This document shows positions 6,390-46,368 of a stretch of DNA of 64,000 nt, piece by piece. Within the stretch, counting starts at the first letter, position 1, and each line of letters opens with the position of its first letter. The translations under genes were made by a program, and so were the position numbers. The stretch is from Flavobacterium psychrophilum (GTDB lineage: Bacteria > Bacteroidota > Bacteroidia > Flavobacteriales > Flavobacteriaceae). Under the pieces are notes generated by a model. That model was not told where the DNA came from. It saw nothing but the letters and a program-made list of their open reading frames with translations, and did not search any database. The stretch is from contig CAMCFT010000018.1 in assembly GCA_945874225.1 (NCBI GenBank), positions 1 through 64,000 of the forward strand. Reading direction: 5' to 3'.

Positions 6390-6446
6390 TTTAACAATTA
6401 CGGCAGTTTTTCTACCCCAACTGCATTTTTAAACCCTTTAGGTTTA
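6390..6446 (+). promoter_or_regulatory. Putative activator site plus -7 box of the RHS operon
   Basis: Begins TTTAACAATTACGG, then the palindrome GGCAGTTTTTCTACC, and 22 bases later TAGGTTTA (6439-6446), which resembles the Bacteroidota -7 box TAnnTTTG. There is no TTTG -33 box at the right distance. The same spacing and sequence recur at 34531 and 38763 in the secretion operon, which suggests activator-dependent, shared control. Confidence 0.6.
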
Positions 6447-6621
6447 CAAATGTTATTACATCATTAAAAAGTTTCAAAAAATAATGTCAATGTCTTGATT
6501 ACAGAATACAAATTCAATAAAAGACCAAATTAAATATTTTTAATAGCAGTTTAATTGAATCACAATAAGTATGAATTTTTAAAATTAAAAAATCTTTCCA
6601 AGTTAAAATACAAATTGTTTT

Positions 6622-7128
6622 ATGTTAAAAAATAAATTAAATCTGCTGTTTATATTCAATGTTTTGTTAATAGGCTTATTGGTTACATATTTTGCTTTTA
6701 GGATACTGGAACCAAATAAGAAGATTGTCTATGTTGACAACAACAAACTCTTCGAAGGTTTCAATATGACTAAAGAAATGAAGCAAGTTGGAGAAAAAGA
6801 ATTTAATACCAGAAAAATTGGGTTGGATTTATTGTATTCTAAATTGCAATCTCAAACAATTTCTGATGGTGAAAAGAAAATGCTAATGCAACAGTTCATC
6901 CAAGGAAAAGAAGGATTGGAACAATTTAATCAAAGTTTTGCCACTGAAGAAGCTTCTAAAATCTGGTCAAGGATTCACGGTTATACAGCTGATTTTTCTC
7001 AAGAAAACAAATATCAATTAATCATTGGTTCACAAAACAAGCAAACTGTTTTGTTTGCAGATGAAAATGTTGATGTAACAAACGAACTTCTTACCTACAT
7101 AAACAAAAAATATGAAGGTATTAAGTAA
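6622..7128 (+). CDS. OmpH/Skp-like periplasmic protein with N-terminal membrane anchor
   Basis: 168 residues. Residues ~6-27 are a hydrophobic signal-anchor (LLFIFNVLLIGLLVTYFAF). The next segment, KIVYVDNNKLFEGFNMTKEM, matches the start of OmpH/Skp chaperones (xIxYVDxxKLFExFxMTKE), followed by a charged helical region (~60-130) as in Skp tentacles, although shorter. Skp-family proteins hold unfolded exported proteins in the periplasm. As the first gene of the RHS operon it may be a dedicated chaperone for the giant secreted RHS proteins; that is inference from position. It overlaps the next gene by 17 bp. Confidence 0.75.
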   Translation: MLKNKLNLLFIFNVLLIGLLVTYFAFRILEPNKKIVYVDNNKLFEGFNMTKEMKQVGEKEFNTRKIGLDLLYSKLQSQTISDGEKKMLMQQFIQGKEGLEQFNQSFATEEASKIWSRIHGYTADFSQENKYQLIIGSQNKQTVLFADENVDVTNELLTYINKKYEGIK

Positions 7129-7714
7129 GTTGTTCTGTTTGGCTTTTGTATTTATATTTTTTTCTTGTAAGAAAGAGGGGAATGAAGTTAAGGACGATAC
7201 TGAAATTAGAGATCGTTATTTCAATCTGGAAAAGGTGGGATGGAAATCTCGCATATACACACAAAAGATCGATGACATCGGTTTTACTGCAACCGAAGTT
7301 CCTATTCTATATTATTTACTAAAAGATAAGGGGAAAGAGGATTTATTTCTTGTAGATTCTCTTTATGAGGAAAATAAAAAAGAACGTGTTATGGAATTTA
7401 CATTCCAGCAAGACGAAGAAAAAGATTTGCTCTCTAAAGATTTTACGGGAATGGATTATACTGATGTTGTAAAATATATGTCTTTCGGCCTCGATAAAGA
7501 TTTTTATGTGGTGACGTCAAAAAAAGACACTATTCCTTGTTCTGGCGTCACTTTCGAACGCAATTATAAAATAGCTCCTTATCAAAAAGTTTTATTGTTT
7601 TTCACTGGAATAGACCCAAATGATAAAATACAGTTGGTTTACAACGACTACCTTTTTAGAAAAGGGACATTAAAGTTTAAATTTAAAGATACCTATACCA
7701 AAATAGCCTTATGA
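7112..7714 (+). CDS. Putative lipoprotein of the RHS operon
   Basis: 200 residues with a lipoprotein signal peptide ending FIFFSC-KKEG (Cys ~19), so probably lipid-anchored in the outer membrane or periplasm. The remainder is a soluble, mostly beta domain with no motif that I recognise. It overlaps the upstream gene by 17 bp and the RHS-A gene by 4 bp (ATGA), which is strong evidence for translational coupling. Its constant position before RHS-A suggests a role in assembly or surface anchoring of the RHS complex, but function is unknown. Confidence 0.8.
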   Translation: MKVLSKLFCLAFVFIFFSCKKEGNEVKDDTEIRDRYFNLEKVGWKSRIYTQKIDDIGFTATEVPILYYLLKDKGKEDLFLVDSLYEENKKERVMEFTFQQDEEKDLLSKDFTGMDYTDVVKYMSFGLDKDFYVVTSKKDTIPCSGVTFERNYKIAPYQKVLLFFTGIDPNDKIQLVYNDYLFRKGTLKFKFKDTYTKIAL

Positions 7715-10700
7715 TCAAGCAATTAAAAAAAAGTAAGTTCAAAAAAACGGTAGCTATTTATTTAGCAATGATGATTCTTTTAGAGACTTTACAGCCTATG
7801 CGGATGTATGCTTTAACAAGTGGTCCAACACAACCAGAGTTTAACGCTTTTACTCCTATTGGAACATCTGATATGGTAAATTTATCGACCGGTGATTTCA
7901 ATTACAACATTCCAATTATGGATGTGGGTGGATATCCCTTAAATCTCGCCTACAACTCTGGAGTAACAATGGATCAGGAAGCATCATGGGTTGGTCTGGG
8001 ATGGAATCTTAATGTTGGGGAAATTTCGCGTCAAGTACGAGGTTTACCCGATGATTTTAGAGGGGACAAAATGCGTTATGAAAATAACTTGCGAGATAAT
8101 GTTACAGTAGGAACTAATTTGAATGTATCTCCAGCATTTTTTGGGTCTGATTTTCCAATAAAAGGAGGATTTGGATTGGGAGTGCAATACAATAATTATG
8201 AAGGCATAACTTTTAAACCCTCAATTGGAGTTTCTTATGAAATTGCTGGAATGAGTAGTGTAGGGTTTGATTTGTCTGGCTCTACAGCTGAAGGAGCAAC
8301 ATTAAGTCCTTCTGTTTCAATTTCAAAGGGAATGGACAATAAAGAAAAAGGAACGTCATTAAGTGTGGGGATAGGATCTTCTTTTAACAGCAGAAAAGGG
8401 CTGGAAAATATAAGTGCATCTGCTACATTAAAGGAAAATATTTCTGTGACTAATAAAAAGGGGGTAACTAAGGATGTGGAGGTAACTGCGGCTAGTAATG
8501 GAGGAAGTATTTCTCTCAACAACACCAACAATTACACTCCCACAAAACGAGTTGCCTATGACAATTTAAATAATACTTTCAATGCTACTTTTGGAACTGA
8601 AATATATGGAGTGGAAGCACAATTTAGAATAACAGGCTACGGATCTGTTCAAAAAATTAATTCTAAATACAAAGATAGATTTGTGGGGGGGTATGGTTAT
8701 GAAAATACCCAATATAAAAACAACTTGGAGGGAGTGCTCGATTTTAACAGAGAAAAAGAGCAAACCATTTCTAAAAACACAAATGCTCTTCCGGTAACTA
8801 ATTATACGTATGATACTTACAATATTGAAGGGCAGGGTGTTTCAGGAATGTTTAGACCTTTTAGGTCAAAGGTGGGTTATTTGTATAATGATAATGTGAC
8901 TGATTTTAGTTCAAGTAAATCTTTCGGAGTAGAGATTGGTGCGGGTGGTATATTTCATGGAGGAGTAAATTTTTTGAATTCCCCAACGACTAGCACTACA
9001 AGCAAATGGTCTAAAAAGAATAATGCTTTGCCTTATTTCACAGAAAGTAATACAGATAAAAATAATCCATTGTACGAGCAATCTGCTTTTAAGCTAATAG
9101 GAGAATTAGATGTAGATAACGAAAGTAATAAAACGCTTAATAATAATGCTTTAAGGCTGGATATTTCAGGAGGGAAGTTCAATAGAAGCTTGACTTCAGC
9201 ATATTTGGCAAAGCCGGCCACGACCATTAACCCTATTCTTCTAGACAGGGATAAGGTTAAAAGGACGGAACGATTAGGACGAAATCAGACAGTACAGAAA
9301 ATTACAAATCAGGAAGCTGACGGAAATTTTATATTTACGAATAGCAATGCAAAATCCCATCATACTGTAGGTATGAAAGTACTTCAAACCGATGGTACAA
9401 CTTATATATATGGTCAATCGGTTTATAATACTACAAAAGTAGAAGCAACTTTTGATGTTTCAAGTGTTAAGGAAAGCGATACTATTAATTTAAAAAAAAA
9501 GGACGGAATAGTTAAATACAATGGGCTTGTTACTGGAAATGGGAATGTTGATAGTGATCAATATGTCAATAAAATAACAACGCCAGGCTATGCGCATTCT
9601 TACCTAATTACCAGTGTTCTTTCGTCAGATTATCAGGATATTGACAATATTGGTGGCCCATCTGATAACGATTTAGGAACTTATACTAAGTTTGATTATA
9701 CAAAAGAAGGAGATAATGGGTTTGTTAAGGAATACAAATGGAGAGTGCCCTACGGAGCTAATGAAGCTTCCTATAATGAAGGATTACGAACAAGTAAAAA
9801 AGATCAAAAAGGGAATTATATTTATGGCAAAAAAGAACTGGTTTATCTAAAAAAAATAGAAACCAAAACACATATAGCTTTCATAGATATAGAGAATCGA
9901 AAAGATGCTATGGGCGTTTCAGGAGAGCACGGGGGACAAGGTACTCAATCTATGAGTCGCATAAAATCCATTCGATTGTATTCTAAAGCCGAATTATCTG
10001 TTGATGAAGGCAATAATGTTGTTGACCCAGGAATTACATCTTCAATAAAACCAATTAAAACAGCTCATTTTGAATACAATTACGAATTATGTGGAGGTAC
10101 TCCAAATAATTTTGAAGGAACAAAAGGAAAACTAACTTTAAAAAAAGTATATTTTACCTATCGTGCCTCGAATATGGGAAAATATACACCTTATAAATTT
10201 GATTATGCTACTTTTAATCCTGACTATAATATAAAAGGATTTGATGTATGGGGAAATTATAAAGAAAACGCCATATCAAATCCTTTAACAACTTCCGAAT
10301 TTCCATTCGTGGAACAAGACCAAACCAAATCAAATCAAAACACCAGTGCTTGGGTTTTAAAAAAAATAACATTGCCATCAGGAGGAGAACTGAATATTCA
10401 AACTGAAAGCGATGATTATAAATATGTCCAAAACAAAAAAGCAATGCAAATGTTCAAAGTGATTGGTGCAGGGGATAGTCCAACGCCTATAGCTAGTTCC
10501 AATATTGCCCAACTTTATTCTGGTAAAACGCCAAATAGATATATTTATGTAAAAGTTAATGATGCCACTCTGTCAAATAAGGAATTTATTAATAAATATT
10601 TATCCGAAAACATAGGCAAACCTATTTATTTTAAGTTTTTGCTTAATATGACCACCATAGGGAATAATATTCAGAATTATGAAAAGGATTTTGTTAGCGG

Positions 10701-13700
10701 TTATTTTGAGATCGAAACAGATAATGCATTAAGGTCATCAATGGTGGTTTCAAATGGAATGGTAGCTATACCATTAAAATTTCTTAAAGTTGACGGCTTT
10801 ATTAATAAAGACAGACCAGTTAATCCTATTGCAAAAGCAGGTTGGGGATTCGGCAGAACATATTTGAATAGGGCTGTATACAGTCTTGGGGGCGAGGAAA
10901 TAAATAAAAGTTTTAGTTCAATAGTTCTTGATTTAAAAAACAGTATAAAATCAATGACAGAAGTTTTTAAAAGCCCTAATGGGTTGTTGGAAACAAAAGG
11001 ATGTGCTAGATATTTTGACACAGAACGTTCTTGGGTAAGGCTAGAAAATCCTAATGGAAAAAAATTGGGCGGAGGACTACGCGTAAATAAAATAGAATTG
11101 AGCGATAACTGGATTGTTATGAATTCGGTAGAACCAAATTCCATTTACAATGAAAAATATGGGCAGGAATACAAATATACTCTAGAGGATGGAACATCTT
11201 CAAGTGGGGTGGCTACTTTCGAACCCAATGCTTCTCCAGAGAATCCTTTTGTAGAGCCTTTTTACGGGAAGGATGGGAGTTATGCAGACAGAATTGCTGC
11301 CCCTAAAGAAATGAATTATGTGGAAAAGCCTTTTGGGGAAAGCTTTTTCCCTTCTCCTAAAATAACTTATTCCCGGGTAACGGTATCTAATCTTGATAAA
11401 AGCAATGATAATATTGGTAAAGTTGTAAAAAAACACGCCACAGGTAAAGTGGTTACCGAACATTATACAACCTATGATTTTCCTACGTTGGTTGACTATA
11501 CAGATTTGGACATACGCCCTGATATGATGAAAAGCCCTTTGCTTAAGCTCTTGAATATAGTTTCAATTGATCATTTAACAGCTTCCCAAGGGTTTTCTAT
11601 TGAAACTAATGATATGGATGGAAAAGTTAAATCTGAAAAAGTATATGGAGAAGGACAAACCACTCCCATATCAAGAGTGGATTATAAATACAATGTGGAT
11701 TCAGATGGTAAATTAGACAATAATTTAACAACAATAAATTCAGAAGGAAAAACCCAAACAAACTTGTTGGGGGTTAATTATGATTTAATAAATGATTTCA
11801 ATGAGAGTTATTCCACAACTAAATCTCGCGGATTTGATGCTAATGTTGCTTTTTTTATGGTTGGGATTTGGCCTGTTTTTGTACCTAGAGTATTTCCAAA
11901 AATTTCTAATAATGAATCTATTTTAAGAACGGCTACCACTACCAAAGTCACTCATAAAACGGGAATTTTAATAGAAAAAGTGGCCTATGATTTAGGTTCT
12001 AGAGTATCAACAAAAAACCTCGCTTGGGATGCAAAAACTGGGCAAGTACTGCTCACTCAAACTATAAATGAGTTTGATGACAATTATTATAGTTTCAACT
12101 ATCCGGCTTATTGGAGTTATGAAAATATGGGGTTAGCTTCTGATAATATAGATTTAAGTGGCATTTTAAGCAACGCAGCTAACGATTCTAATTTTGGTAT
12201 TTTAGGAGCGACTACTACTAATATTTCAGAATATTTTAAAATTGGTGATGAATTATTGTTGTCAGATAATTCAAAACTTTGGGTTAGCGGATATAACACA
12301 GGCAAAACTCAAATTCAGCTAATAAATAGAGCTGGAGTAACTATCAATCAATCAAACAAGCCCATTAATTTAAACTTCAAAGTGTTACGCTCTGGAAACA
12401 GAAACCAACAAATGGCCTCTATGGCCTCGGTCACTTCTATGGTAAACCCAATTGACATAGACAATAATGGTGTTTTAAATAACATCACAGAAACAAGTTT
12501 TGTTTACGATTCGAATACTCCTATTAATCCAAAGGTAATCAACGCTAGCGCAGTAGAATATAACGATGATTGGAGTTCTCAATGCGAGAATGATATGCCT
12601 AATGGATCTGGAATTATAAACAGCGTAGGAACTCCTGTAAATCCATATATTTATAACACCAAAGGCAATTGGAGAGCAGTAAAATCGTATGCTTACTTAA
12701 CAGGTAGAAACAATTTTGTAACACCAAATAGAAGAAAAGCAGGGTATTTCACCAACTTTAATCCTTTTTATAAATTAAATAATACGGGTTGGACAAAAGA
12801 TATTTCGGGATGGACATTTGCTAGTCAAGTCACCAAATACAGCCCTCACGGTGTAGAGGTTGAAAACAAAGATGCTTTGGAACGATACTCTTCTGCACAA
12901 TATGGCTATAATTATGCATTGCCAGTCGCGGTAGCCTCTAATGCAAAATATGACGAAATAGGCTATGATGGTTTTGAGGATTATGGTATTCCTAATCCAA
13001 CTTTGTCGGCTATGTTAAAACCTCATTTTGGGTTTTCTCAAGGGCTAAACACCGATGTTTATCTTACTGCCGAAAAATCGCACACAGGAAACGGTAGTTT
13101 AGCAGTAAAACCAGGAAAACGGGCAACCTTTACTAGAACAATAAATGGTTGTACAGTTGCGGGATCAAACCCTAATCCGACACAAACATTTTATTATGAA
13201 GGATTTTGGACTGCGGATGATATTCAGCATCATCCAGAAATTAATTCTTGGGTAGATTATTTAGATGGGAACGGAACTCAACAAAGGTTTATAGTTGGTG
13301 CTGTCGAAAATGGTTGCCAAGGTATTATTGCGGCAAGCATCATAGATACAAGTGGTTGCGCTGTTTGTACACCTGTGCCATCAATAAAAATAGTTAACGA
13401 TTTTGAGAGTTCCCCAAGTTGCTGGAATTCTGTAACGGTTGAGATAGCCACTGCAAGACCTGTTCTTGTTGATATTATATCAAATTTTACTGGAACAGGA
13501 ACATACAATACAAATCTACCTTTAGGCATAGGTGTTACAGGTATATATTCAGATTTAATTAATGCTTCTATTTCATCTAATAAAAAATACAATTTTGGAA
13601 TAGATGGTCATAAGCAATTTGGAGCTGGAGATATTTATACTAGTACTATAACTATTATTGTAAAAGAATTTGATGGTACTATAATAGAGACTTATGTATT

Positions 13701-13731
13701 TACAAGAACACATGATAATGTTCATTGTTAA
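7711..13731 (+). CDS. Giant RHS-A-type protein (large secreted shell component), lacking its usual C-terminal tail
   Basis: 2006 residues. Residues 1-35 form a basic, Sec-type signal region (AIYLAMMILLETLQP). The conserved Bacteroidota RHS N-terminal motif follows: FTPIGTSDMVNLSTGDFNYN and WVGLGWNLNVGEISRQVRG at ~93-111. The body is mostly beta-rich and is expected to form part of the RHS/Tc-like shell that pairs with RHS-B. Near the C-terminus (~1785-1815) is the first half of a carbohydrate-binding-like beta-sandwich (SHTGNGSLAVKPGKR), then a Cys-containing insert, ending HDNVHC. The matching second half of this sandwich and the usual RHS-A tail are encoded by the next gene, so the protein appears to have been split by an insertion. 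Starts with a 4-bp overlap to the lipoprotein gene. Confidence 0.85.
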   Translation: MIKQLKKSKFKKTVAIYLAMMILLETLQPMRMYALTSGPTQPEFNAFTPIGTSDMVNLSTGDFNYNIPIMDVGGYPLNLAYNSGVTMDQEASWVGLGWNLNVGEISRQVRGLPDDFRGDKMRYENNLRDNVTVGTNLNVSPAFFGSDFPIKGGFGLGVQYNNYEGITFKPSIGVSYEIAGMSSVGFDLSGSTAEGATLSPSVSISKGMDNKEKGTSLSVGIGSSFNSRKGLENISASATLKENISVTNKKGVTKDVEVTAASNGGSISLNNTNNYTPTKRVAYDNLNNTFNATFGTEIYGVEAQFRITGYGSVQKINSKYKDRFVGGYGYENTQYKNNLEGVLDFNREKEQTISKNTNALPVTNYTYDTYNIEGQGVSGMFRPFRSKVGYLYNDNVTDFSSSKSFGVEIGAGGIFHGGVNFLNSPTTSTTSKWSKKNNALPYFTESNTDKNNPLYEQSAFKLIGELDVDNESNKTLNNNALRLDISGGKFNRSLTSAYLAKPATTINPILLDRDKVKRTERLGRNQTVQKITNQEADGNFIFTNSNAKSHHTVGMKVLQTDGTTYIYGQSVYNTTKVEATFDVSSVKESDTINLKKKDGIVKYNGLVTGNGNVDSDQYVNKITTPGYAHSYLITSVLSSDYQDIDNIGGPSDNDLGTYTKFDYTKEGDNGFVKEYKWRVPYGANEASYNEGLRTSKKDQKGNYIYGKKELVYLKKIETKTHIAFIDIENRKDAMGVSGEHGGQGTQSMSRIKSIRLYSKAELSVDEGNNVVDPGITSSIKPIKTAHFEYNYELCGGTPNNFEGTKGKLTLKKVYFTYRASNMGKYTPYKFDYATFNPDYNIKGFDVWGNYKENAISNPLTTSEFPFVEQDQTKSNQNTSAWVLKKITLPSGGELNIQTESDDYKYVQNKKAMQMFKVIGAGDSPTPIASSNIAQLYSGKTPNRYIYVKVNDATLSNKEFINKYLSENIGKPIYFKFLLNMTTIGNNIQNYEKDFVSGYFEIETDNALRSSMVVSNGMVAIPLKFLKVDGFINKDRPVNPIAKAGWGFGRTYLNRAVYSLGGEEINKSFSSIVLDLKNSIKSMTEVFKSPNGLLETKGCARYFDTERSWVRLENPNGKKLGGGLRVNKIELSDNWIVMNSVEPNSIYNEKYGQEYKYTLEDGTSSSGVATFEPNASPENPFVEPFYGKDGSYADRIAAPKEMNYVEKPFGESFFPSPKITYSRVTVSNLDKSNDNIGKVVKKHATGKVVTEHYTTYDFPTLVDYTDLDIRPDMMKSPLLKLLNIVSIDHLTASQGFSIETNDMDGKVKSEKVYGEGQTTPISRVDYKYNVDSDGKLDNNLTTINSEGKTQTNLLGVNYDLINDFNESYSTTKSRGFDANVAFFMVGIWPVFVPRVFPKISNNESILRTATTTKVTHKTGILIEKVAYDLGSRVSTKNLAWDAKTGQVLLTQTINEFDDNYYSFNYPAYWSYENMGLASDNIDLSGILSNAANDSNFGILGATTTNISEYFKIGDELLLSDNSKLWVSGYNTGKTQIQLINRAGVTINQSNKPINLNFKVLRSGNRNQQMASMASVTSMVNPIDIDNNGVLNNITETSFVYDSNTPINPKVINASAVEYNDDWSSQCENDMPNGSGIINSVGTPVNPYIYNTKGNWRAVKSYAYLTGRNNFVTPNRRKAGYFTNFNPFYKLNNTGWTKDISGWTFASQVTKYSPHGVEVENKDALERYSSAQYGYNYALPVAVASNAKYDEIGYDGFEDYGIPNPTLSAMLKPHFGFSQGLNTDVYLTAEKSHTGNGSLAVKPGKRATFTRTINGCTVAGSNPNPTQTFYYEGFWTADDIQHHPEINSWVDYLDGNGTQQRFIVGAVENGCQGIIAASIIDTSGCAVCTPVPSIKIVNDFESSPSCWNSVTVEIATARPVLVDIISNFTGTGTYNTNLPLGIGVTGIYSDLINASISSNKKYNFGIDGHKQFGAGDIYTSTITIIVKEFDGTIIETYVFTRTHDNVHC

Positions 13732-13795: not shown

Positions 13796-15208
13796 ATGAA
13801 AAATAATTCAACAATGATAAAAAAAATAATAATTTGCTTGATTTTATTGCCAGTTTTTAGTTTTGGTCAGACATATTCAAATATTGATCAACCCGTTTAT
13901 TGTACCGACTATTTAATAGGCCAATATGGTAATTGTGGAGGAGACGGAGGAATACAAATAACCAATAATAATTATTTGACTGTTACTTTTGGAGCAGCCT
14001 GGAGTGGCTCTCAACAGCTAAAAACAAATACAATAATTACTCTCAACGTTATTCCAACCTTACCTACTATAGAATTAGGACCTATTTTAGATAATTTGAA
14101 TAACGCTCCAACAGGTTATTATGCTAAAATTGAAAATAATGATTTAGTTTTTTATACTTTACTTCAGGAAATTCCTTTTATAAATAATGGTTGTTATATA
14201 AACCCTTTTGGGCAATCGCTTGATTGTGTGAGTTCCACTTGGTATCATGACGGTGATGGAGATGGATTTGGTACTCAAGCACCAAGTTCTATAGGATGTC
14301 CCTCAAGCTGTGCTCAAATATCAGCTTGTACACAACCTGTTGGTTATGTAGCCAATAATCTTGATTGTGATGACTCAAATAATTTGATAACTCCAAACAC
14401 AATTTGGTATATTGACAAAGATCATGATGGTTATGGTGATGCAACTTACTATAACCCTCCAAATGGTGTAACCGACCCACCATCAGTTACAGGTTGCACG
14501 CAACCTTATGGTTACGCTATTAATTATAGTGATTGTGATGATACGAACGCTTTGATAAACTCTGGTACAATTTGGTATCGTGATGCCGATGCTGATGGTC
14601 TTGGTGATATTTCAATTTCTATTACAAGTTGTTTACAGCCAATTGGTTATGTGAATAATTCAAACGACACTAATGACAATCCTTTATGCAACTACTGCGC
14701 ATCCTTCAATTTAATCAAAAACGAAAAATACTTGGTAAGCGCTTGGATAAAAGAAAGCAATCCAAATACACCCCAAGAACAATTTAAAAATTTCGATAAA
14801 GGCTGTGTCAGTATTTCATTTAAAGATGTGGCAGGGTTGCCTATTGCAACTCCACAAAAATTTTATGCAACGGGCGAAATTATTGATGGCTGGCAGCGTA
14901 TCGTTGGGGAATTTACAGTGCCAGATACCGTAAACGATATGGAACTTGAACTACTCAACGAAAACACTGATTCTAAAATGGTGTACTTTGATGACATAAG
15001 GATATTGCCCAGCAAAGGTAATATGAAAAGCTTTGTTTACGACCAAAAAACGCAACGCCTAATGGCAGAGTTAGATGAAAATAACTACTCTACATTTTAT
15101 GAATATGATTTAGAGGGAGGCTTGGTACGAGTAAAAAAAGAAACCGAAAAAGGCGTGTTTACAATCCAAGAAACTCGTAGTGGAAATGCTAAAACAGACA
15201 AACCATAA
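13796..15208 (+). CDS. Secreted MopE-repeat protein fused to the displaced RHS-A C-terminal tail
   Basis: 470 residues. The signal peptide (IIICLILLPVFSFGQ) may start at either ATG 13796 or ATG 13814. Residues ~150-290 hold three MopE-type putative metal-binding repeats (TWYHDGDGDGFGT, IWYIDKDHDGYGD, IWYRDADADGLGD) with paired Cys in DCDDSN / DCDDTN. From ~300 the sequence becomes the second half of a beta-sandwich (NEKYLVSAWIKE, GWQRIVGEFTVPD, MVYFDDIRILP) and then the typical end of Bacteroidota RHS-A proteins (RLMAELDENNYSTFYEYD, KGVFTIQETRSG). This gene therefore carries the missing end of the RHS-A protein on a new secreted carrier. Gap to RHS-A is 64 bp; it overlaps the next gene by one base (TAATG). 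Confidence 0.8.
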   Translation: MKNNSTMIKKIIICLILLPVFSFGQTYSNIDQPVYCTDYLIGQYGNCGGDGGIQITNNNYLTVTFGAAWSGSQQLKTNTIITLNVIPTLPTIELGPILDNLNNAPTGYYAKIENNDLVFYTLLQEIPFINNGCYINPFGQSLDCVSSTWYHDGDGDGFGTQAPSSIGCPSSCAQISACTQPVGYVANNLDCDDSNNLITPNTIWYIDKDHDGYGDATYYNPPNGVTDPPSVTGCTQPYGYAINYSDCDDTNALINSGTIWYRDADADGLGDISISITSCLQPIGYVNNSNDTNDNPLCNYCASFNLIKNEKYLVSAWIKESNPNTPQEQFKNFDKGCVSISFKDVAGLPIATPQKFYATGEIIDGWQRIVGEFTVPDTVNDMELELLNENTDSKMVYFDDIRILPSKGNMKSFVYDQKTQRLMAELDENNYSTFYEYDLEGGLVRVKKETEKGVFTIQETRSGNAKTDKP

Positions 15209-36802: not shown

Positions 36803-37121
36803 CCCAAAAGCAAATTCCATATTGGAATCCGTGATTGCTTTGACGATTATTTCAATTTGTTTGTATTTGGCTATTATGATTTTTGCAGCTGTTTTTACGC
36901 CTAGAACATCGGCGAAGTTTTACGGTACACAAAACAGGGTAAATGAATTATTCTTTTTGGCAGAACTAAAAAGCGATTCATTGTCGGATGAAAGTGAAGA
37001 CGAAAACCTGATCATGGAGGAAGAAGAAATAAACGAAGGGGTGAAAAGAATTTCTATTAAATATAAGGACAGCAGCCAATTTCAGTTTGAGAAAAGTTTT
37101 TATGTTCAAGCCAATGAATAA
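36777..37121 (+). CDS. Minor (pseudo)pilin, PilV/GspI-like
   Basis: 114 residues from ATG 36777, chosen because it places a short basic leader (MAFLKKYCSPKA) before the prepilin motif NSILESVIALTII, with predicted cleavage after Ala and Glu at +5. The hydrophobic helix continues to ~37. The C-terminal part is acidic. An earlier in-frame ATG at 36714 would give an untypical leader that runs through the upstream gene. Overlaps the upstream gene by 26 bp and the next by 8 bp. Confidence 0.8.
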   Translation: MAFLKKYCSPKANSILESVIALTIISICLYLAIMIFAAVFTPRTSAKFYGTQNRVNELFFLAELKSDSLSDESEDENLIMEEEEINEGVKRISIKYKDSSQFQFEKSFYVQANE

Positions 37122-38762: not shown

Positions 38763-38819
38763 TTTAACAAATAAGGTAGTTTTTCTACCCTAACAGTAGC
38801 AGTAAACCGTTTATGTTTA
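38763..38819 (+). promoter_or_regulatory. Shared promoter module, internal copy before the major pseudopilin
   Basis: TTTAACAAATAAGG, palindrome GGTAGTTTTTCTACC, 22 bases, TATGTTTA (38812-38819). Nearly the same as the copy at 34531, and the following leader aligns as well, so this looks like a duplicated regulatory region that gives the second half of the operon its own promoter. Confidence 0.6.
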
Positions 38820-38937
38820 CAACCAATAGGATCTGGTAAAATACAATTCTAAAACAAAGTATAAAACTTGATTTTACATGGACACTCAATAAAAACGGAG
38901 GCTTAGATATTTTCAAAATAGTTGTAATAAGACAATA

Positions 38938-39390
38938 ATGATAAAAAGAAACTGGATGTTGAAAAGAATTAAAAAATACATACATAACAGTAAAAAAGCC
39001 ACAGTTAAAGCATACTCCCTGACAGAGATTTTAATTGTATTGTGTATTATTGGAATATTGTTATTAATGGTATTGCCTAACCAAACATCAGTGATTGGCC
39101 AGGCAAAAGCCATTGAGGCACAAGCAATGCTGAATCAGATTTACGGACTGGAAAAAAGTCATTTTTATCGCTATTCCAAATATTCAAACAACTTGGAAGA
39201 AATTGGTTTTGAGCAGGAATTGACCGTTGACGAAGGGGGACAAGCGGTTTACAAAATCGAAATTCTCGAAGCGTCTAACGATTCCTTTTCTGCAAGAGCA
39301 ACTGCGACCTCCGACTTAGATGATGATGGAAGTTTCAATACCTGGGAAATCGACAATAAGAAAATGTTAACCGAAGTAACAAAAGAATAA
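38938..39390 (+). CDS. Major (pseudo)pilin, GspG/PilA-like
   Basis: 150 residues. A long basic leader of ~24 residues ends VKA, followed by the prepilin N-terminus YSLTEILIVLCIIGILLLMV with Glu at +5. After the helix comes a GspG-like short domain (AQAMLNQIYGLEKSHFYRYS; DLDDDGSFNTWEID, a possible calcium-binding turn as in GspG). Alternative start: Met7, 18 bases downstream. It heads the second transcription unit and is followed directly by the prepilin peptidase. Confidence 0.88.
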   Translation: MIKRNWMLKRIKKYIHNSKKATVKAYSLTEILIVLCIIGILLLMVLPNQTSVIGQAKAIEAQAMLNQIYGLEKSHFYRYSKYSNNLEEIGFEQELTVDEGGQAVYKIEILEASNDSFSARATATSDLDDDGSFNTWEIDNKKMLTEVTKE

Positions 39391-39391
39391 A

Positions 39392-39874
39392 TTGAAAATA
39401 GCATTTATAGGTTTGTTACTTTGTTTGCTGCTGGTGTTTTTTCAAGATTGGAAATACAGAAGAATTCATGTGGGCTTGCCTTTGGCAATTGCCCTTTGCT
39501 CTTTTTATATAATCCATCAAAAAAATGAATTCCTGTTCCGGAGTATTGCTTTCAATTTAGGCTTTTTAGGGCTTACATTAAGTATATTGACTATATATAT
39601 GAGTCTGAAAAGCAAACAATTTTCGAATCCTTTTCAAAATTATTTTGGGCTAGGCGACTTACTTTTTTATGCGGCTATTGCGCCATTGTTCATACTTCAA
39701 AATTACATTCTCTTCTTCATTCTTTCAATGATTTTTGCGATTGGTCTTCAATTGGGATTAAAAAAAATCCTCAAAGAGAACACGGTGCCTTTAGCAGGAT
39801 TTTCAGCTTTGTTTTTGTGTATTGTAATCATAAAAGATAGTCTTTTACTTTTTCAAAAAATCACACTATTATAA
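39392..39874 (+). CDS. Prepilin peptidase, short form (A24 aspartic peptidase)
   Basis: 160 residues, highly hydrophobic, with about six membrane helices. Catalytic aspartates are Asp19 (FQDWKYRRI) and Asp89 in the GLGDLLFYAA (GxGD) motif. The N-terminal methyltransferase half of GspO/PilD is missing, as in other short A24 enzymes. The start is TTG at 39392, one base after the pilin stop. It probably cleaves the three prepilins of this operon, all of which carry Ala rather than Gly before the cut. Confidence 0.85.
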   Translation: MKIAFIGLLLCLLLVFFQDWKYRRIHVGLPLAIALCSFYIIHQKNEFLFRSIAFNLGFLGLTLSILTIYMSLKSKQFSNPFQNYFGLGDLLFYAAIAPLFILQNYILFFILSMIFAIGLQLGLKKILKENTVPLAGFSALFLCIVIIKDSLLLFQKITLL

Positions 39875-39877
39875 AAT

Positions 39878-41281
39878 ATGCAAGAGATAATAGTTCATCC
39901 CGAAAATCAGCATAGTATTTCAAGTGATTTAGCAAACCAGTATAGGATATTGCCTAAATCGGTTTCCGAGAATACGTTAGAATTATACGTAGAGGATACA
40001 TTTGGTAATAAGGATGCCAAAGAGGAATTGGAACTTTTTTTGGGGAAACATATTGTTTTTAGTACGGTAGATTCCTCTGATATGGAAAAAGCCTTATCTA
40101 TTTATTACAGAAAAGAACGACTTGCTACTGTTAACAAATCACTAAAGGTGGACAAAGGAGATTTTCTGGAGAATTTATTGGGTGAAGCAAAATCCTTGAA
40201 ATGCAGTGATATTCATTTTGAAGTCTACGAAGATTCAGCTCGAATTCGCTTTAGAATAGACGGTCAATTGATGGAGCGTTACAAAGTGGAAATGGATAAT
40301 TACCTGGAGCTGGTCAACAAAATTAAAATAAAAGCCAAACTCAACATTACCGAAAAACGGTTGCCACAAGACGGCAGGATTACTAACGAATCGTTTGATA
40401 TAAGGGTGTCTATTTTACCTACTTTATTTGGAGAAAAAATAGTAATGCGATTGCTAGGGCAAGATGCGTCAAATATCGATTTGAAAACACTGGGTTTTCA
40501 AAAAGAAGAATTGGAACATTATCTCGAGGCCGTAAAAAAACCTAACGGGATTATTCTGATAAGTGGACCAACGGGTTCTGGGAAAACAACAACTCTTTAT
40601 GCTACTTTGAGATTGTTAAATGACAGCAGAAGAAATATTGTTACTGTTGAGGATCCGATTGAATATACCCTAAAAGGCATCAACCAAGTTCAATTAAAAG
40701 AGGATATTGGATTGACCTTTTCGTCAGCTTTAAAGTCGTTCTTGCGACAAGACCCGGATGTAATTATGTTGGGAGAAATTAGAGACTCCGAAACGGCTTT
40801 GATGGCCATTCGGGCTTCTTTGACGGGACATTTGGTTTTATCAACGATACACACCAATTCCGCTATAGGAACGATTTCCAGATTAATCGATATGGGAGTG
40901 CCGCCTTATCTGATTGCGGAAACATTAAACCTTTCTGTAGCGCAACGATTGGTTCGAAAACTTTGCGACAATTGCAAAAAAGAAGTCGAATGCCATAAAG
41001 AAGATTTTCCTTCAAATTTTCAATTTCCGTACGAAATTTCAAAATACAACAAACCTGTCGGTTGCAACAAGTGTTTTCATACGGGCTATAAAGGCAGAAG
41101 AGCCATTTATGAAGTTTTAACTATCGATGGAATCATCAGTGAAGCTATTAAAAACAATGCGATTACAAAAGTATTCAGTAAGGAAGAAAATTATAAATCA
41201 CTGTCAGAAAAGGCTTTTGATATTTTAGCCGAAGGAGAAACGGCACTAGAGGAAATTTATTCTATTTTAATCAACATATAA
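39878..41281 (+). CDS. Secretion/pilus assembly ATPase (GspE/PilB)
   Basis: 467 residues, a complete GspE: N-terminal GspE-N region (~1-85), then KSLKCSDIHFE and the RFRIDGQL segment, Walker A GPTGSGKT at 230-237, Asp box VEDPIEYTLKGINQVQ, Walker B LRQDPDVIMLGEIRD, His box LSTIHTNSA, and a four-Cys zinc site (CDNC ... CNKC, GYKGRRAIYEVL). It powers pseudopilus extension. No PilT retraction ATPase is encoded nearby, which argues for a T2SS-like rather than a retractile pilus. Confidence 0.96.
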   Translation: MQEIIVHPENQHSISSDLANQYRILPKSVSENTLELYVEDTFGNKDAKEELELFLGKHIVFSTVDSSDMEKALSIYYRKERLATVNKSLKVDKGDFLENLLGEAKSLKCSDIHFEVYEDSARIRFRIDGQLMERYKVEMDNYLELVNKIKIKAKLNITEKRLPQDGRITNESFDIRVSILPTLFGEKIVMRLLGQDASNIDLKTLGFQKEELEHYLEAVKKPNGIILISGPTGSGKTTTLYATLRLLNDSRRNIVTVEDPIEYTLKGINQVQLKEDIGLTFSSALKSFLRQDPDVIMLGEIRDSETALMAIRASLTGHLVLSTIHTNSAIGTISRLIDMGVPPYLIAETLNLSVAQRLVRKLCDNCKKEVECHKEDFPSNFQFPYEISKYNKPVGCNKCFHTGYKGRRAIYEVLTIDGIISEAIKNNAITKVFSKEENYKSLSEKAFDILAEGETALEEIYSILINI

Positions 41282-41285
41282 ATAA

Positions 41286-43202
41286 ATGTTTAAACAAATT
41301 ATTTGCGTTCTAATCGGTGTCTTTTTTACAAATCTTGTTGCTGCACAACAGGATATAAATGAATTAAGCAGAAAATTTGATGAATTGTCAATACAAAAAA
41401 AAGGACTCAATGAAGCAATTAAAATAGATGTTTCAGGGGTGACATTATTTGATTTTATTTCTTCAATAGCCGAAGAACATCAACTGAATGTAGATGTAGA
41501 TATTGCTTTGAATCAACCGGTAGCGAACAACTTTTTTGATGTTACGGTCAAAGAAGTGTTTATTCATTTGGTCCAAAAATACGATTTGGAAGTCTCTTTT
41601 ATGAATAACATCATTGTTTTTAAAAAGAGAAAAGAAGTGGTGATTATTGAAAAAAAAACGCCTAAAATTATTGATGTTAATTACAATACACAAAACGATT
41701 TCTTGTCCATTAAACTGGAAAACGATTCGTTGCAATCAGTTATAAAAGCGATTATTGACAAGTCAAGTAAGAACTTAGTATTAGCTCCGGATATTAAAAG
41801 TCAAAAAGTCTCGGCTTACATTCTCAATCGACCATTTGATCAAGTTATCGAAATGATGGCAAAATCAAATGACTTAATGGCAACCAAAGATGAAAACGGA
41901 TTTTATTTTATCGAAAAAAACAAAGAAAAAAACAACAATGGTGCAACGGACAATAATAACAATCCGAAGTCAAAACAACCCAAAGCAAGTATTGGCGCTC
42001 CGGGGTATTTCGAAGTAAATTTATCCAAAACGGGGTTTTTATCGGTAAAAGCAAATGGGGCTGATGTCGCTGATTTGTTAACCGAAGCTGCCGAAAAATT
42101 GCATATAAATTACTTTCTATACAATAAGCCTGAAAATGAAAAAACATCACTCTTGGCAGAAAATATTTCTTTTGATGAACTTTTAGAGCATATTTTCAAA
42201 GGAAAAAAATACACTTATAAGAAGAAAGATAATTTATATTTAATTGGGGAACAGGTGACTGAAGGGCTTAGGGAAACTGAAATGATTCAATTGGAAAATC
42301 GATCTATCGAATCAGTGCTTACTTCTTTGCCAAAGGTCTTTTCAGAAAAATTGGAAATTAAAGAATTTATTGAACTTAATGGATTAATAGTTTCTGGCTC
42401 AAAATCGGTGCTTGAAGAATTAAAAGTGTATATCAAGCAAATTGACAAAGTAGTCCCAATGGTTCAAATTGAGGTAATTATTGTGCAATACAATAAAGGA
42501 TACGACATTCAAACAGGAATGAAAGCAGGTTTAGATAAAATAAATACACCACCACCTACAGGGGGTACAATACATCCTACGACAGATGTATCAATAAATG
42601 CGACATCAATTAACAGTTTAATTGATGCCTTTAATGGTTTTGGTCTTTTTAAATTGGGAAAAGTAGCTTCATCATTTTATCTTAATCTGAAACTACTTGA
42701 AAATAATTCCATAATTAAAGTGGAATCAACACCTAAAATCGCTACTATCAGCGGGCATGAAGCAAAATTGTCAATTGGAGAAACGAGCTATTATTTTGAA
42801 CAAAATAACCGATTGATAAACAACAGTATCGGAAACGATATATTGAATTCAGGAACCTGGAAATCTACCGATGCTAATTTGACAGTATCAATTAAACCTT
42901 TTGTTTCAACAGATGAAAATGTAACTTTATCAATATCGGTCGAGAAAAGTTCTTTCTTAGGTAGAGCTGGGGAAACAGCCCCTCCAGGGAAAGCGACTCA
43001 AAGATTTGAATCTTTGGTTAGGGTAAAAAATGGCGAAATGATTTTATTGGGAGGATTAGACGAATTGAAAAAAGAAAATTCAGGATCGGGAACACCGCTG
43101 ATATCACGAATTCCGGTTATTAAATGGTTTTTTAGCAGCCGGAAAAAAGGAAAAAGCGACTCAAAACTGCACATTTTTATCAAACCTACAGTAGTATATT
43201 AA
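41286..43202 (+). CDS. Outer-membrane secretin (GspD/PilQ family)
   Basis: 638 residues with a Sec signal (IICVLIGVFFTNLVAAQQ). Repeated STN/N-type domains at ~40-115, ~140-215 and ~240-320 (VTLFDFISSIAEEHQLNVDV; SLQSVIKAIIDKSSKNLVLA), separated by an Asn-rich linker (~215-235), then an N1-like domain and the secretin barrel domain from ~395 (VPMVQIEVIIVQYNKGYDIQ; ESTPKIATISGHEAKLSIG) to the end (GEMILLGGL; PVIKWFF). It forms the outer-membrane gate. No lipobox, so a lipoprotein pilotin is likely to be separate. Confidence 0.93.
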   Translation: MFKQIICVLIGVFFTNLVAAQQDINELSRKFDELSIQKKGLNEAIKIDVSGVTLFDFISSIAEEHQLNVDVDIALNQPVANNFFDVTVKEVFIHLVQKYDLEVSFMNNIIVFKKRKEVVIIEKKTPKIIDVNYNTQNDFLSIKLENDSLQSVIKAIIDKSSKNLVLAPDIKSQKVSAYILNRPFDQVIEMMAKSNDLMATKDENGFYFIEKNKEKNNNGATDNNNNPKSKQPKASIGAPGYFEVNLSKTGFLSVKANGADVADLLTEAAEKLHINYFLYNKPENEKTSLLAENISFDELLEHIFKGKKYTYKKKDNLYLIGEQVTEGLRETEMIQLENRSIESVLTSLPKVFSEKLEIKEFIELNGLIVSGSKSVLEELKVYIKQIDKVVPMVQIEVIIVQYNKGYDIQTGMKAGLDKINTPPPTGGTIHPTTDVSINATSINSLIDAFNGFGLFKLGKVASSFYLNLKLLENNSIIKVESTPKIATISGHEAKLSIGETSYYFEQNNRLINNSIGNDILNSGTWKSTDANLTVSIKPFVSTDENVTLSISVEKSSFLGRAGETAPPGKATQRFESLVRVKNGEMILLGGLDELKKENSGSGTPLISRIPVIKWFFSSRKKGKSDSKLHIFIKPTVVY

Positions 43203-44389
43203 TGATTACATTATTGTCTAAAATATTAAAATTGAACAATATACATATTGTTGGAGTCATTAGTAAAGAGGATGAGGAAAACTATAATGTACTTACGGTT
43301 AAAAAGAAAGGAAATAAAATAGATATTATCACTGCGGTTTCATTTAATACTTTCGAGGAGTTTAAAAAAACGATAGATCCTAAACTTCCTATAATTATAG
43401 TGGTTGATGGGAAAGGGATTCTAAACAAGGAAATTGACTTCAGTAATGAAACAGATGTAAATTGGCAGAAAAATATTGATTTTACGACTATTTATCATAC
43501 AAGCTTAAAAGGATTTAGTAGTAATTTCATAAGTTTTTGTAGAAAAAATGGAGTAGAAGAAACGATAACAAAATTTCAAAAAAACGGATTTCAGATAGTC
43601 GATATTTATATAGGTGCTTTTTTATCAGCCTTGTTATACAATACCATAAAGAAAGAGATCATAATTTCAAACGAATTGCTTTTGAATTTTGAAAATGGAA
43701 AGTTGGTCAAATTTTCAAAGCAAACAGAACCAATTAAACTGGAACAATACAATATTGGAAAAGAGACGGTTTCCAGTGTTTTTTTGCCCTTATATGGTGC
43801 TTTGATCCACTTTTTTATTCAACCAAAAGAAGTTTCAAAAACAAAAAATGAGGCTTTAAATGAGGAAGAAATTATTTATAAAAAGGCATTTAATATATTG
43901 GGAATTACAATGCTGGTTAGTTTTTTAGGTGCGTTATTGGCAAGTTATCTGTTAATACAGTATTACGGCTCAAAAAACGGGGAACTCAACCTTCAAAATG
44001 TATATTCAAACCAATCCTATCAGATAATATTGGATTTAGAAAAGCAAAAAGAAAACAAGCAAAAAATTTTAAATGAGGCTGGTTTTTTATCGTCAAAATT
44101 TATTACTTATTATGGTTATGAAATAATTAAATCAGTCCCCCAAGATATTGCTTTGAACGAGCTAAATATAAAACCCTTAAGCAAAGAAACTAAAGCGAAT
44201 CTAAAGATAAATTTTGATGTAAAAACAATCATGATTAAGGGAGAAACAGTCGAGGAATCATCATTAAACAGCTGGATGGAGGAGTTGAAAAAAATGAATT
44301 GGGTGAAAAATTTTGAAATTATAAGTTTGAAAAAAGACAAGAAAAACAAATCACAATTTGAACTAAAAATCACGATAAAAGATGTTTGA
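43202..44389 (+). CDS. GspL-like assembly protein (PilM-PilN fusion layout)
   Basis: 395 residues. Residues ~1-215 are a degenerate actin-like cytoplasmic domain (PIIIVVDGKGILNKEIDF), one membrane helix lies at ~232-255 (GITMLVSFLGALLASYLLIQ), and the periplasmic part (~265-395) has a coiled coil and a PilN-like ferredoxin fold (IMIKGETVEESSLNSWMEEL; WVKNFEIISL). This is the GspL/PilMN layout linking the ATPase to the periplasm. First base overlaps the secretin stop; its end overlaps the next gene by 8 bp. Confidence 0.75.
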   Translation: MITLLSKILKLNNIHIVGVISKEDEENYNVLTVKKKGNKIDIITAVSFNTFEEFKKTIDPKLPIIIVVDGKGILNKEIDFSNETDVNWQKNIDFTTIYHTSLKGFSSNFISFCRKNGVEETITKFQKNGFQIVDIYIGAFLSALLYNTIKKEIIISNELLLNFENGKLVKFSKQTEPIKLEQYNIGKETVSSVFLPLYGALIHFFIQPKEVSKTKNEALNEEEIIYKKAFNILGITMLVSFLGALLASYLLIQYYGSKNGELNLQNVYSNQSYQIILDLEKQKENKQKILNEAGFLSSKFITYYGYEIIKSVPQDIALNELNIKPLSKETKANLKINFDVKTIMIKGETVEESSLNSWMEELKKMNWVKNFEIISLKKDKKNKSQFELKITIKDV

Positions 44390-44906
44390 GAATTATTCGT
44401 ATAAAAAAAAATTCACAGCATTAATTGCAGTATTCTTGATGCTTTCAATTACGGCTTATAAAAGATCATTTCATACTTTATTTCAGGTAATGGAGGAATA
44501 CAGGGGACTGTCTGAAAAAGTTGACGATATCAATAAAAAAGCAAACAATACGGATGGATTGATTGGAGACATTGCCTATTTAGATAAAATAATTGGTAAA
44601 GAGGGGATAACGAAAGAAATGGCGCAACAAGGAATTGTAAGTTTTGCTACAAAAAATCATGCTCAGATATCCATTAATGATGTCCAGCCCATACATGTTT
44701 TCTCGGATGATAATTATAGAATAATTACGAATCAGCTGGATGTAACTGGTAACAGCAATCAATTGTTGCAATTAGCCTATGATTTTGAAAAACAATTTGA
44801 CTTTTCAAGAATAGTGAGCATGAACTTTTATACAACCACGAAAAACAATAAGTTCGAAGTATTACACTTAAAAATGATATTCCAAAACTATGAAAACAGT
44901 AAATAA
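44382..44906 (+). CDS. GspM/PilO-like inner-membrane assembly protein
   Basis: 174 residues: short cytoplasmic tail, one membrane helix (~12-27, FTALIAVFLMLSITAY), a coiled-coil stretch (~35-60), then a small alpha/beta domain (SQLDVTGN-type LDVTGNSNQLLQLAYDFEKQ) as in PilO/GspM. Position after GspL is canonical. Overlaps the next gene by 17 bp. Confidence 0.72.
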   Translation: MFENYSYKKKFTALIAVFLMLSITAYKRSFHTLFQVMEEYRGLSEKVDDINKKANNTDGLIGDIAYLDKIIGKEGITKEMAQQGIVSFATKNHAQISINDVQPIHVFSDDNYRIITNQLDVTGNSNQLLQLAYDFEKQFDFSRIVSMNFYTTTKNNKFEVLHLKMIFQNYENSK

Positions 44907-45846
44907 AATTTGGCTACTTTCCTTGGCATTAGGAATAGTCTCTTGTGATGATATTTTTGAAAAAGACATTACTAATGATACAATCCAAACGATTTCACCT
45001 AGCAATGAGGCAGTAGTAGAGAGTAACGTAGTCAATTTTCAATGGAACAGTCTTGAGGGTGCTGACAAGTATCGAATACAGGTAATAGCTTCTAATCAGG
45101 CTATTGTGTTAGATTCATTGGTAAGTAAAACGAACCTGACTTTCCCGTTAACACAAGGAGTGTATCAATGGAAAGTAAGAGGAGAAAATTTCGCTTACCA
45201 ATCCTCTTATTCTACCCTGTTAAATCTTACGGTTATGGAGACTTCCAACTTGGCAAACCAACAAGTGGTTCTGTCTAGTCCATCGAATGGATTTTACACT
45301 AACGACACTAATTTGACCTGTTCTTGGCTAGGCATAAATAAAGCCGATTATTATGATTTGGAATTAATCAATATGACAAAGGGACAAACAGTGGTATATC
45401 AATTATCTGATATTACAAATACTTCAGCAACTTTAAATAATACAATTCTAAGTCAGGATGCGGAATACCAATGGAAAATTAGAGCCGTAAACACCACTAG
45501 TAAAACAGCATTTACGTCAAGAGTCTTTTTACTGGACAAAATGAATCCTAACCAACCTCAGAATAATTTACCCGCAAACAATGCAGTCAAAGTCGCTAAT
45601 CAATCAATTACTTTTGATTGGATTTCACCTACAGATACCGGAACAATTCAGTCACCTATAGCATACACTATTGAATTTGCAAATAGCAATGCGTTTACCA
45701 CAATAATTCAAACTTCAAACAGCTCGACGGCAACTTTTTCACAAATATTTACTTTGGCAGGGGAGTATTACTGGAGAATTAAAACCTCTGACACAGCGGG
45801 TAATAGCAGTATTTATAGCGTTCCTTTCAAATTCACGATTAATTAA
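44890..45846 (+). CDS. Outer-membrane lipoprotein with three Fn3-like domains in the secretion operon
   Basis: 318 residues. Lipoprotein signal IWLLSLALGIVSC-DD (Cys ~19). Three repeats of ~95 residues share the fibronectin-III-like pattern (VNFQWNSLEGADKYRIQV ... YQWKVRG; LTCSWLGINKADYYDLEL ... YQWKIRA; ITFDWISPTDTG ... YYWRIKT). There is no GspN/PilP equivalent with this fold in classical systems, so it may be a pilotin, an outer-membrane scaffold or a surface adaptor. Embedded between PilO-like and PilP-like genes with overlap on one side. Confidence 0.8.
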   Translation: MKTVNKIWLLSLALGIVSCDDIFEKDITNDTIQTISPSNEAVVESNVVNFQWNSLEGADKYRIQVIASNQAIVLDSLVSKTNLTFPLTQGVYQWKVRGENFAYQSSYSTLLNLTVMETSNLANQQVVLSSPSNGFYTNDTNLTCSWLGINKADYYDLELINMTKGQTVVYQLSDITNTSATLNNTILSQDAEYQWKIRAVNTTSKTAFTSRVFLLDKMNPNQPQNNLPANNAVKVANQSITFDWISPTDTGTIQSPIAYTIEFANSNAFTTIIQTSNSSTATFSQIFTLAGEYYWRIKTSDTAGNSSIYSVPFKFTIN

Positions 45847-45858
45847 TTTAGTTTACCG

Positions 45859-46368
45859 ATGAAAAAGAAAATAAATATTGTTTTGATTATAGTCGTTTTA
45901 GGACTATGGGGTACAGTGGGTTATAGGACTGTTAATCAATATTTTTTTTCAAAAAAATTGATAATAAAGACAATGGATTTAAATAAGGAGTTAAACGCAA
46001 ACCAAATAAATAAAGATACTTTCCAAATGGAAAATAGTATCAGAGATCCATTTTTGAACAAACAAGATCAAAGCATGGTTCCCAGTACAAAAAAAATCTA
46101 TTCAAAGTCTTTAAATATAAAAAAGAATGTTGCTCAGACTTTCAAACCAAAGGAGTTTATCAATTGGCCTTCTATTTCGTATCATGGTTATATCCAATCT
46201 AAAGTAAATAACGAAGAATTAATTTTGGTTAAGATTAATGAAAAGATGCACAAACTTAAAATCAATGAAGAAGTTGAAGGGGTAACTTTAAAAAAAGTGT
46301 ATAAAGACTCTATTGAATTTGTTTTTAATAAAGAAAAAAAAATAATTCAAAAAAAGGGAACTATATAA
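45859..46368 (+). CDS. GspC/PilP-like coupling protein
   Basis: 169 residues with an N-terminal membrane helix (~6-24, IVLIIVVLGLWGTVGYR), a disordered linker with the RDPFL motif typical of PilP/GspC (SIRDPFLNK, ~53-61), and a small C-terminal HR-like beta domain (~97-165, ISYHGYIQSKVNNEELILVK). Members of this family bridge the inner-membrane platform to the secretin N0 domain. Last gene of the operon, 12 bp after the Fn3 lipoprotein. Confidence 0.75.
   Translation: MKKKINIVLIIVVLGLWGTVGYRTVNQYFFSKKLIIKTMDLNKELNANQINKDTFQMENSIRDPFLNKQDQSMVPSTKKIYSKSLNIKKNVAQTFKPKEFINWPSISYHGYIQSKVNNEELILVKINEKMHKLKINEEVEGVTLKKVYKDSIEFVFNKEKKIIQKKGTI

Follow-up and report, generated by a model that had tools for sequence, protein, structure and literature searches.

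The window analyzed here, a stretch of 64,000 nucleotides from Flavobacterium psychrophilum (contig CAMCFT010000018.1, positions 1 to 64,000), contains two operons, one encoding large rearrangement hotspot (RHS) proteins and the other a pilus-like machine resembling the type II secretion system (T2SS). A sequence-only reading of this DNA had proposed that the machine carries the RHS proteins to the cell surface. In Flavobacterium and many relatives the machine co-occurs with and usually adjoins RHS genes, and therefore the machine and the large RHS toxin genes probably form one dedicated export system. The RHS operon is made of the following genes:

6622..7128, plus strand: OmpH/Skp-like periplasmic chaperone with a hydrophobic segment at its N-terminus (PF03938, 40.2 bits, cut-off 32.4)
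7112..7714, plus strand: lipoprotein with an invariant Cys19 (23-sequence alignment), the conserved partner 5' of RHS-A
7711..13731, plus strand: RHS-A, 2006 residues, a TcB/SpvB-like shell protein
13796..15208, plus strand: exported protein p13796; its C-terminal part corresponds to a stretch that some relatives carry fused to RHS-A (sequence and profile matches)
15208..15927, plus strand: LolA3-family periplasmic carrier-like protein (NCBIfam NF053579, 185.7 bits, above the equivalog cut-off of 83)
15943..27063, plus strand: RHS-B, 3706 residues, with DUF6443, YD repeats, an RHS core (residues 3377–3459) and a C-terminal tip (PF20041, PF05593, TIGR03696, TIGR01643)
27060..27560 and 27563..28024, plus strand: two small lipoprotein-like genes, possibly immunity genes from their position 3' of the toxin tip (lipobox by eye)

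RHS-A has the TcB/SpvB fold, that of the B half of the Tc toxin BC component, and finds no sequence match in the PDB. Its N-terminus is basic, signal-like and conserved. Residues 120–335 show a strong beta-type hydrophobic alternation with outer-membrane-barrel-like matches, and the region of residues ~120–430 is assigned, with low confidence, as an amphipathic beta insert similar to the barrels of outer-membrane proteins. In genomes G012, G014, G022, G028, G042 and G046, RHS-A matches interrupted by stop codons were found. RHS-B is an RHS/YD-repeat polymorphic toxin by its scores of 37.4 bits for TIGR01643 and 49.5 bits for TIGR03696, both above cut-off, and its tip carries an HEVGH motif, metallopeptidase-like by eye. 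The lipoprotein preceding RHS-A was modeled with a predicted local distance difference test (pLDDT) score of 84.8, and no clear known fold was found for it. The Sec signals claimed earlier for the RHS proteins are indeed seen, as both RHS-A and RHS-B begin with Sec-type N-termini (judged by eye). Neither protein contains an N-terminal PAAR or VgrG Pfam domain of the kind found in Rhs proteins delivered by the type VI secretion system (T6SS), and a Pfam scan of 29 window proteins gave no T6SS domains.

The machine is encoded by the secretion operon, all on the plus strand:

34708..35607, plus strand: MORN-like protein p34708, first gene of the operon (PF07661 below cut-off; homologs in 60 of 79 loci)
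35591..36802, plus strand: large minor-pilin-like protein, putatively PilX/GspK-like by position (homologs in 66 of 79 loci)
36714..37121, plus strand: minor pseudopilin-like protein with a hydrophobic N-terminal helix (weak ComGF-like match)
37087..37599, plus strand: minor pseudopilin-like protein (weak ComGE/ComGF-like match)
37599..38720, plus strand: GspF/PilC-like inner-membrane platform (PF00482, 8.3e-47)
38938..39390, plus strand: major pseudopilin/pilin, GspG-like (TIGR02532, 17.0 bits, cut-off 16.3)
39392..39874, plus strand: prepilin peptidase of family A24 (PF01478)
39878..41281, plus strand: GspE/PilB-like assembly ATPase (PF00437, 9.8e-127)
41286..43202, plus strand: secretin (PF00263, 5.3e-33)
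43202..44389, plus strand: PilN-domain protein with a long N-terminus, GspL-like (PF05137)
44382..44906, plus strand: PilO/GspM-like by position (GspM E 0.072; homologs in 73 of 79 loci)
44890..45846, plus strand: FnIII lipoprotein of the machine cluster (PF00041)
45859..46368, plus strand: PilP/GspC-like by position, directly 5' of ompH in many relatives (spacing in 21 loci)

That the machine is encoded in one place, as had been stated, is borne out: the GspF-like platform, A24 peptidase, GspE-like ATPase, secretin and PilN-domain protein are recognized by Pfam and the pilin scores just above its NCBIfam cut-off. The canonical T2SS set of secretin, assembly ATPase, platform, major pseudopilin and prepilin peptidase is present in a single cluster, while the GspL, GspM/PilO, GspC/PilP and minor-pseudopilin roles were assigned by position, size, weak matches and N-terminal sequence. 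All scores stay below the NCBIfam equivalog cut-offs for T2SS (GspD 122.5 vs 351.35, GspE 482.4 vs 630.25, GspF 249.9 vs 424 and GspG 24.8 vs 88.85 bits) and below those for the type IVa pilus (T4aP; PilQ 129.1 vs 284.35 and PilB 482.7 vs 675.65 bits). These sub-cut-off scores for both families agree with published trees, in which, in the text available, the Bacteroidetes ‘T2SS’ groups with T4aP and not with the proteobacterial T2SS (PMC6668835). That placement, together with the comparable scores of the secretin and ATPase against PilQ and PilB and against GspD and GspE, would suit a type IV pilus that serves in adhesion or takes up DNA, with the RHS genes linked to it only incidentally. No second ATPase, such as a PilT retraction ATPase, was found among the cluster proteins scanned with Pfam.

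The association of the two operons was followed in 249 genomes drawn evenly from the family of G001, with thresholds of E ≤ 1e-30 for the secretin, E ≤ 1e-15 for RHS-A and E ≤ 1e-3 for DUF6443. The secretin was found in 54 genomes, RHS-A in 36 and DUF6443 in 59, of which 57 are above the Pfam cut-off. Every one of the 54 secretin genomes has an RHS-A or DUF6443 match, as compared with 9 of the 195 genomes lacking the secretin (Fisher 1e-45); within the 54, RHS-A taken by itself is matched in 33 and DUF6443 taken by itself in 50. The co-occurrence spans two secretin classes, with 14 genomes in the close and 40 in the divergent class. The nearest RHS gene lies on the same contig in 44/54 and within 20 kb in 40/54, where ~1.9 would be expected. 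A search of 49 machine-bearing genomes, derived from 50 of the 79 loci described below, gave an RHS-A match in all of them (weakest E 1.6e-15). For 100 of the 249 genomes a gyrB tree was built. All 22 independent pairs on it show RHS following the secretin, and when only well-supported branches are counted ~5.9 of 6 pairs follow (median p 0.03).

Gene neighborhoods were compared in 79 distinct secretin loci, drawn from the best 80 of 105 relatives. The flanks extend no further than 10 kb and are often truncated by a contig end, and start codons were assigned mechanically. An RHS-operon gene or RHS tip is near the secretin in 51 of these loci and in none of the other 28. In 21 rows, which represent 19 different genomes and mostly genera other than Flavobacterium, ompH follows the last machine gene on the same strand; the distance between them is ≤100 bp in 15/21 rows (14/19 genomes) and ≤8 bp in 12 rows (11 genomes), about half of these with overlapping genes. 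In six loci ompH and the first machine gene are divergent. In loci L110 and L111 the machine, ompH, the lipoprotein, RHS-A, LolA3 and RHS-B are co-directional over ~30 kb with the tips 3' of them, and comparable neighbor genes accompany the divergent secretin class. The absence from the family draw of any machine without an RHS gene, the linkage within 20 kb and the last machine gene overlapping or abutting ompH in several genomes all speak against an incidentally linked type IV pilus, which is considered very unlikely. Genetic coupling of the machine and RHS genes is well supported and highly probable.

In the machine-bearing loci L177, L184, L185, L040, L045, L047 and L070, one to several exported proteins of ~300–470 residues are encoded 5' of RHS-A. 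Their C-termini are coiled-coil-like by eye, and the five that were scanned gave no Pfam family above cut-off.

In a wider sample of 296 genomes from the phylum, the secretin profile was found in 27 genomes and DUF6443 in 54, with both in 22, the secretin only in 5, DUF6443 only in 32 and neither in 237. DUF6443 thus accompanies the secretin in 22/27 genomes (Fisher 3.7e-14) and is located within 30 kb of it in 17/26. Among three of the five genomes with the secretin but without DUF6443, an RHS open-reading frame (ORF) adjoins the machine by profile in one (L149) and by eye only in another (L148), and none was seen in the third (L147). The sequence-only reading held that it would be refuted if either operon were often found by itself; the rarity of the machine without RHS agrees with that reading, while for RHS without the machine (9/195 genomes in the family and 32/269 in the phylum) the agreement is only partial. 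The occurrence of RHS without any such machine is real. A broader secretin profile found nothing in the nine family genomes concerned, and some PF00263 secretin is present in 5 of 40 secretin-less RHS genomes tested, a set from which four of those nine were left out.

The RHS operons that lack the machine bring in the type IX secretion system (T9SS) as a rival exporter. According to this explanation, RHS proteins are exported by T9SS, the machine has another purpose, and the two are neighbors because both ride one genomic island. Secretin-less RHS operons start with a T9SS-tagged protein in three of four clusters by PF18962, the fourth (L145) being cut by the contig end with an unrelated protein scanned in its place. 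A local T9SS profile, which was derived from three related seed sequences and could have overlooked others, found a tagged ORF in 6 of 20 further secretin-less RHS clusters. The T9SS-sorted protein, usually the first gene, was seen in L143, L144, L146, L152, L153, L161, L163, L167 and L169, and represents a possible alternative export route there. A tagged ORF also adjoins the RHS genes in three machine-bearing loci, L033, L037 and L055 (PF18962 for L055), and is located elsewhere in the flank in the machine-bearing L018, L026, L039, L049, L058, L074, L076 and L124.

In the window itself, the C-terminal T9SS sorting domain (PF18962, TIGR04183) is absent from RHS-A, RHS-B, p13796 and the two orphan tips described below, as had been noted before for the RHS proteins. 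The local profile gave no tagged ORF in 20 machine-bearing RHS clusters (L170–L189), the co-occurrence extends over both secretin classes, and variable C-terminal tips would leave a C-terminal tag no room. T9SS export of the RHS proteins is therefore judged improbable. The use of T9SS wherever the machine is missing was also considered and rejected as a general rule, because the tag is found in only 3/4 and 6/20 secretin-less clusters, and L033, L037 and L055 have both machine and tag. In some other secretin-less RHS operons the first gene encodes an FG-GAP protein, and four proteins with barrel-like C-termini by eye gave no Pfam family above cut-off.

The first argument made for a partnership was a promoter architecture shared by the operons. 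The elements involved are:

6390..6449, plus strand: upstream module 1 (TTTAACAA / GGCAGTTTTTCTACC / TAGGTTTACAA), preceding the RHS operon; exact joint pattern
34532..34590, plus strand: upstream module 2, preceding the secretion operon; exact joint pattern
38763..38822, plus strand: upstream module 3, preceding the second half of the secretion operon; exact joint pattern
47256..47282, plus strand: partial fourth copy (TTTAACAA-N4-GGCAGTTTTACTGCA), palindrome with 2 mismatches, preceding the LytTR gene
46581..47237, minus strand: response regulator (PF00072), with homologs adjoining the pilin gene in other clusters
47300..48079, plus strand: LytTR-type response regulator (PF04397), candidate reader of the module

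Three copies of the joint pattern TTTAACAA-N4-GGYAGTTTTTMTRCC-N21/22-TANGTTTACAA are present in the window, against a mean of 0.00 in 100 shuffles of it, and the separate pieces are commoner there than the whole pattern. The module accordingly does stand before the RHS operon and both halves of the secretion operon, with its second copy starting at 34532 instead of the 34531 first given, and in all three copies it ends ~115–172 bp before the first gene (6622, 34708 and 38938). The partial copy suggests autoregulation of the LytTR gene, and in this strain the regulator, whose gene adjoins the machine, may use the shared module to activate both operons. The pair of TTTAACAA and palindrome was not seen in the upstream regions of relatives (60 of p34708, 74 of the pilin and 23 of ompH genes), and a relaxed version was found by exact search in 0/18 Flavobacterium-type genomes. 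The module is a real link within this strain and nothing beyond, and since it was not found in relatives, shared regulation was set aside as main evidence for coupling. The dedicated partnership that had been proposed is upheld by co-occurrence, linkage and operon fusion, while its promoter argument does not hold generally.

Homologs of the response regulator at 46581..47237 adjoin the pilin gene of the machine in the divergent clusters L125, L128, L178, L181 and L182. A near-perfect palindrome, TTAACATAAATGGCAGTTTAACTGCCGTTTATGTTAA, is located at 28475–28511, 5' of a gene for a small exported protein, and has GGCAGTTT in common with the module.

On balance the two operons together are likely to encode a single system, in which a machine belonging to the type IV filament superfamily (the Bacteroidetes T2SS) cooperates with an RHS complex of two parts. 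RHS-A would form the TcB/SpvB-like shell of this complex and RHS-B a DUF6443/YD-repeat shell with an exchangeable toxin tip. It is proposed that Sec takes both proteins over the inner membrane, and that the OmpH/Skp-like chaperone, the lipoprotein and LolA3 may keep them competent and aid the assembly of the shell around the tip in the periplasm. Once assembled, the complex would be driven by the pseudopilus through the secretin and so reach the cell surface or the medium, from where it may act on neighboring cells. Export through the secretin is the simplest mechanism and is moderately favored over the other possibilities.

Several observations weigh against this interpretation. Resolution of the gyrB tree is poor, with 22 changes of the secretin on it against a mean of 26.2 and a least value of 22 for shuffled labels, and the absences are soft because the genome searches score few candidates per genome. 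DUF6443-RHS genes without this secretin, eight of the nine family cases being above the Pfam cut-off, and RHS-A in the phylum, found in 24 genomes of which 13 have the secretin and 11 do not, indicate that RHS proteins can also be exported otherwise. The upstream module does not extend to relatives, and for Cytophaga hutchinsonii the available account describes the extracellular protein profile of T2SS mutants as hardly altered (PMC5553014).

Finally, the barrel-like insert of RHS-A and its Skp-like neighbor could mean insertion into the outer membrane by the β-barrel assembly machinery (BAM). In the main rival explanation, RHS-A inserts itself in the outer membrane of the producer through this segment, aided by the chaperone and BAM, and displays RHS-B, so that the filament machine is a partner in contact, adhesion or firing and not the exporter. 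This is regarded as unlikely, yet less so than T9SS export.

A further, tentative proposal of low probability is a separate toxin-delivery apparatus, in which a type IV filament motor has a Tc-BC-like RHS cocoon as its obligate cargo. The RHS-A barrel would dock the loaded cocoon at the outer membrane of the producer or the target, the pseudopilus would drive release, and the tips would be exchanged via integrase-linked cassette arrays beside the machine. The genes between the two operons are:

29365..30411, plus strand: tyrosine integrase between the RHS operon and the orphan tips (PF00589)
30852..31334: possible immunity gene of the orphan tip at 31331..32284
31331..32284, minus strand: orphan RHS tip, starting with MLVPNK (TIGR03696, 32.4 bits, just under the cut-off of 32.5)
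32519..33034: possible immunity gene of the orphan tip at 33054..34025
33054..34025, minus strand: orphan RHS tip, starting with MLVPNK (TIGR03696, 40.7 bits, cut-off 32.5)

The orphan tips share the core start with RHS-B. In 13 of 79 loci, integrase homologs with 63–77% identity are found together with RHS tips and the machine, as if the integrase were tied to the exchange of toxin tips.

For the Bacteroidetes T2SS, the accessible text reports no direct substrate in C. hutchinsonii (PMC5553014), and it may, as has been suggested, be distinct from T2SS as a protein secretion system (PMC6668835). The near one-to-one association of the machine with the large RHS toxin shells, seen in both divergent classes of the machine and extending to fused operons, provides a concrete candidate cargo for testing. 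If true, this would give long RHS proteins a way of export that is independent of T6SS, and LolA3 a function. A switch between RHS operons coupled to the machine and those coupled to a T9SS tag, within one phylum, would be an instructive example of a cargo that moves to another export route.

The proposed route had been taken to be undescribed, which is not wholly so. In F. psychrophilum CC-ST10, T2S genes, two proteins with ABC-toxin domains and OmpH were reported in one ~35-kb cluster with a suggested role in translocation (PMC5808330). Like the window, this cluster contains GspC/D/E/G/L/M homologs, the two ABC-toxin-domain proteins and the OmpH chaperone; unlike here, it was read in a single species as a virulence candidate specific to a strain group, and the text available covers no family-wide test, LolA3 or cargo mechanism. 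T2SS is also given as the export pathway for many RHS-repeat toxins, with bacteroidetes among the phyla (PMC3482391, Table 2), but as a table label that, in the part available, is tied to no particular Bacteroidota gene cluster. A general link between the Bacteroidota machine and RHS was not found in the open-licence literature, and T9SS was proposed for a different toxin class, TANFOR (PMC7073777).

The putative T2SS of C. hutchinsonii and Fjoh_0611–0622 of F. johnsoniae, listed as T2SS genes, are comparable clusters from the same phylum, whose minor pseudopilins and platform proteins are divergent (PMC5553014, the only open-licence paper found for six F. johnsoniae locus tags). In the F. johnsoniae cluster, the same paper gives Fjoh_0618 as the secretin gene and Fjoh_0617 as the GspE gene. 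The C. hutchinsonii system differs in having been studied for cellulose use, the affected outer-membrane porins being judged unlikely direct substrates, and the word ‘rhs’ is absent from that paper. LolA3 of F. johnsoniae is Fjoh_0605, whose deletion was without effect on gliding or amylase secretion (PMC11885536); the main text of that report does not contain ‘rhs’, ‘T2SS’ or ‘type II secretion’. By number this gene is placed just before the T2SS genes Fjoh_0611–0622, and the protein at 15208..15927 belongs to the same LolA3 family. The position of LolA3 and the related locus L013 suggest that F. johnsoniae probably has an RHS operon as well. As opposed to the Tc (ABC) toxin BC component and SpvB, the proteins of the window are long and of Sec type, and RHS-A has a barrel-like insert.

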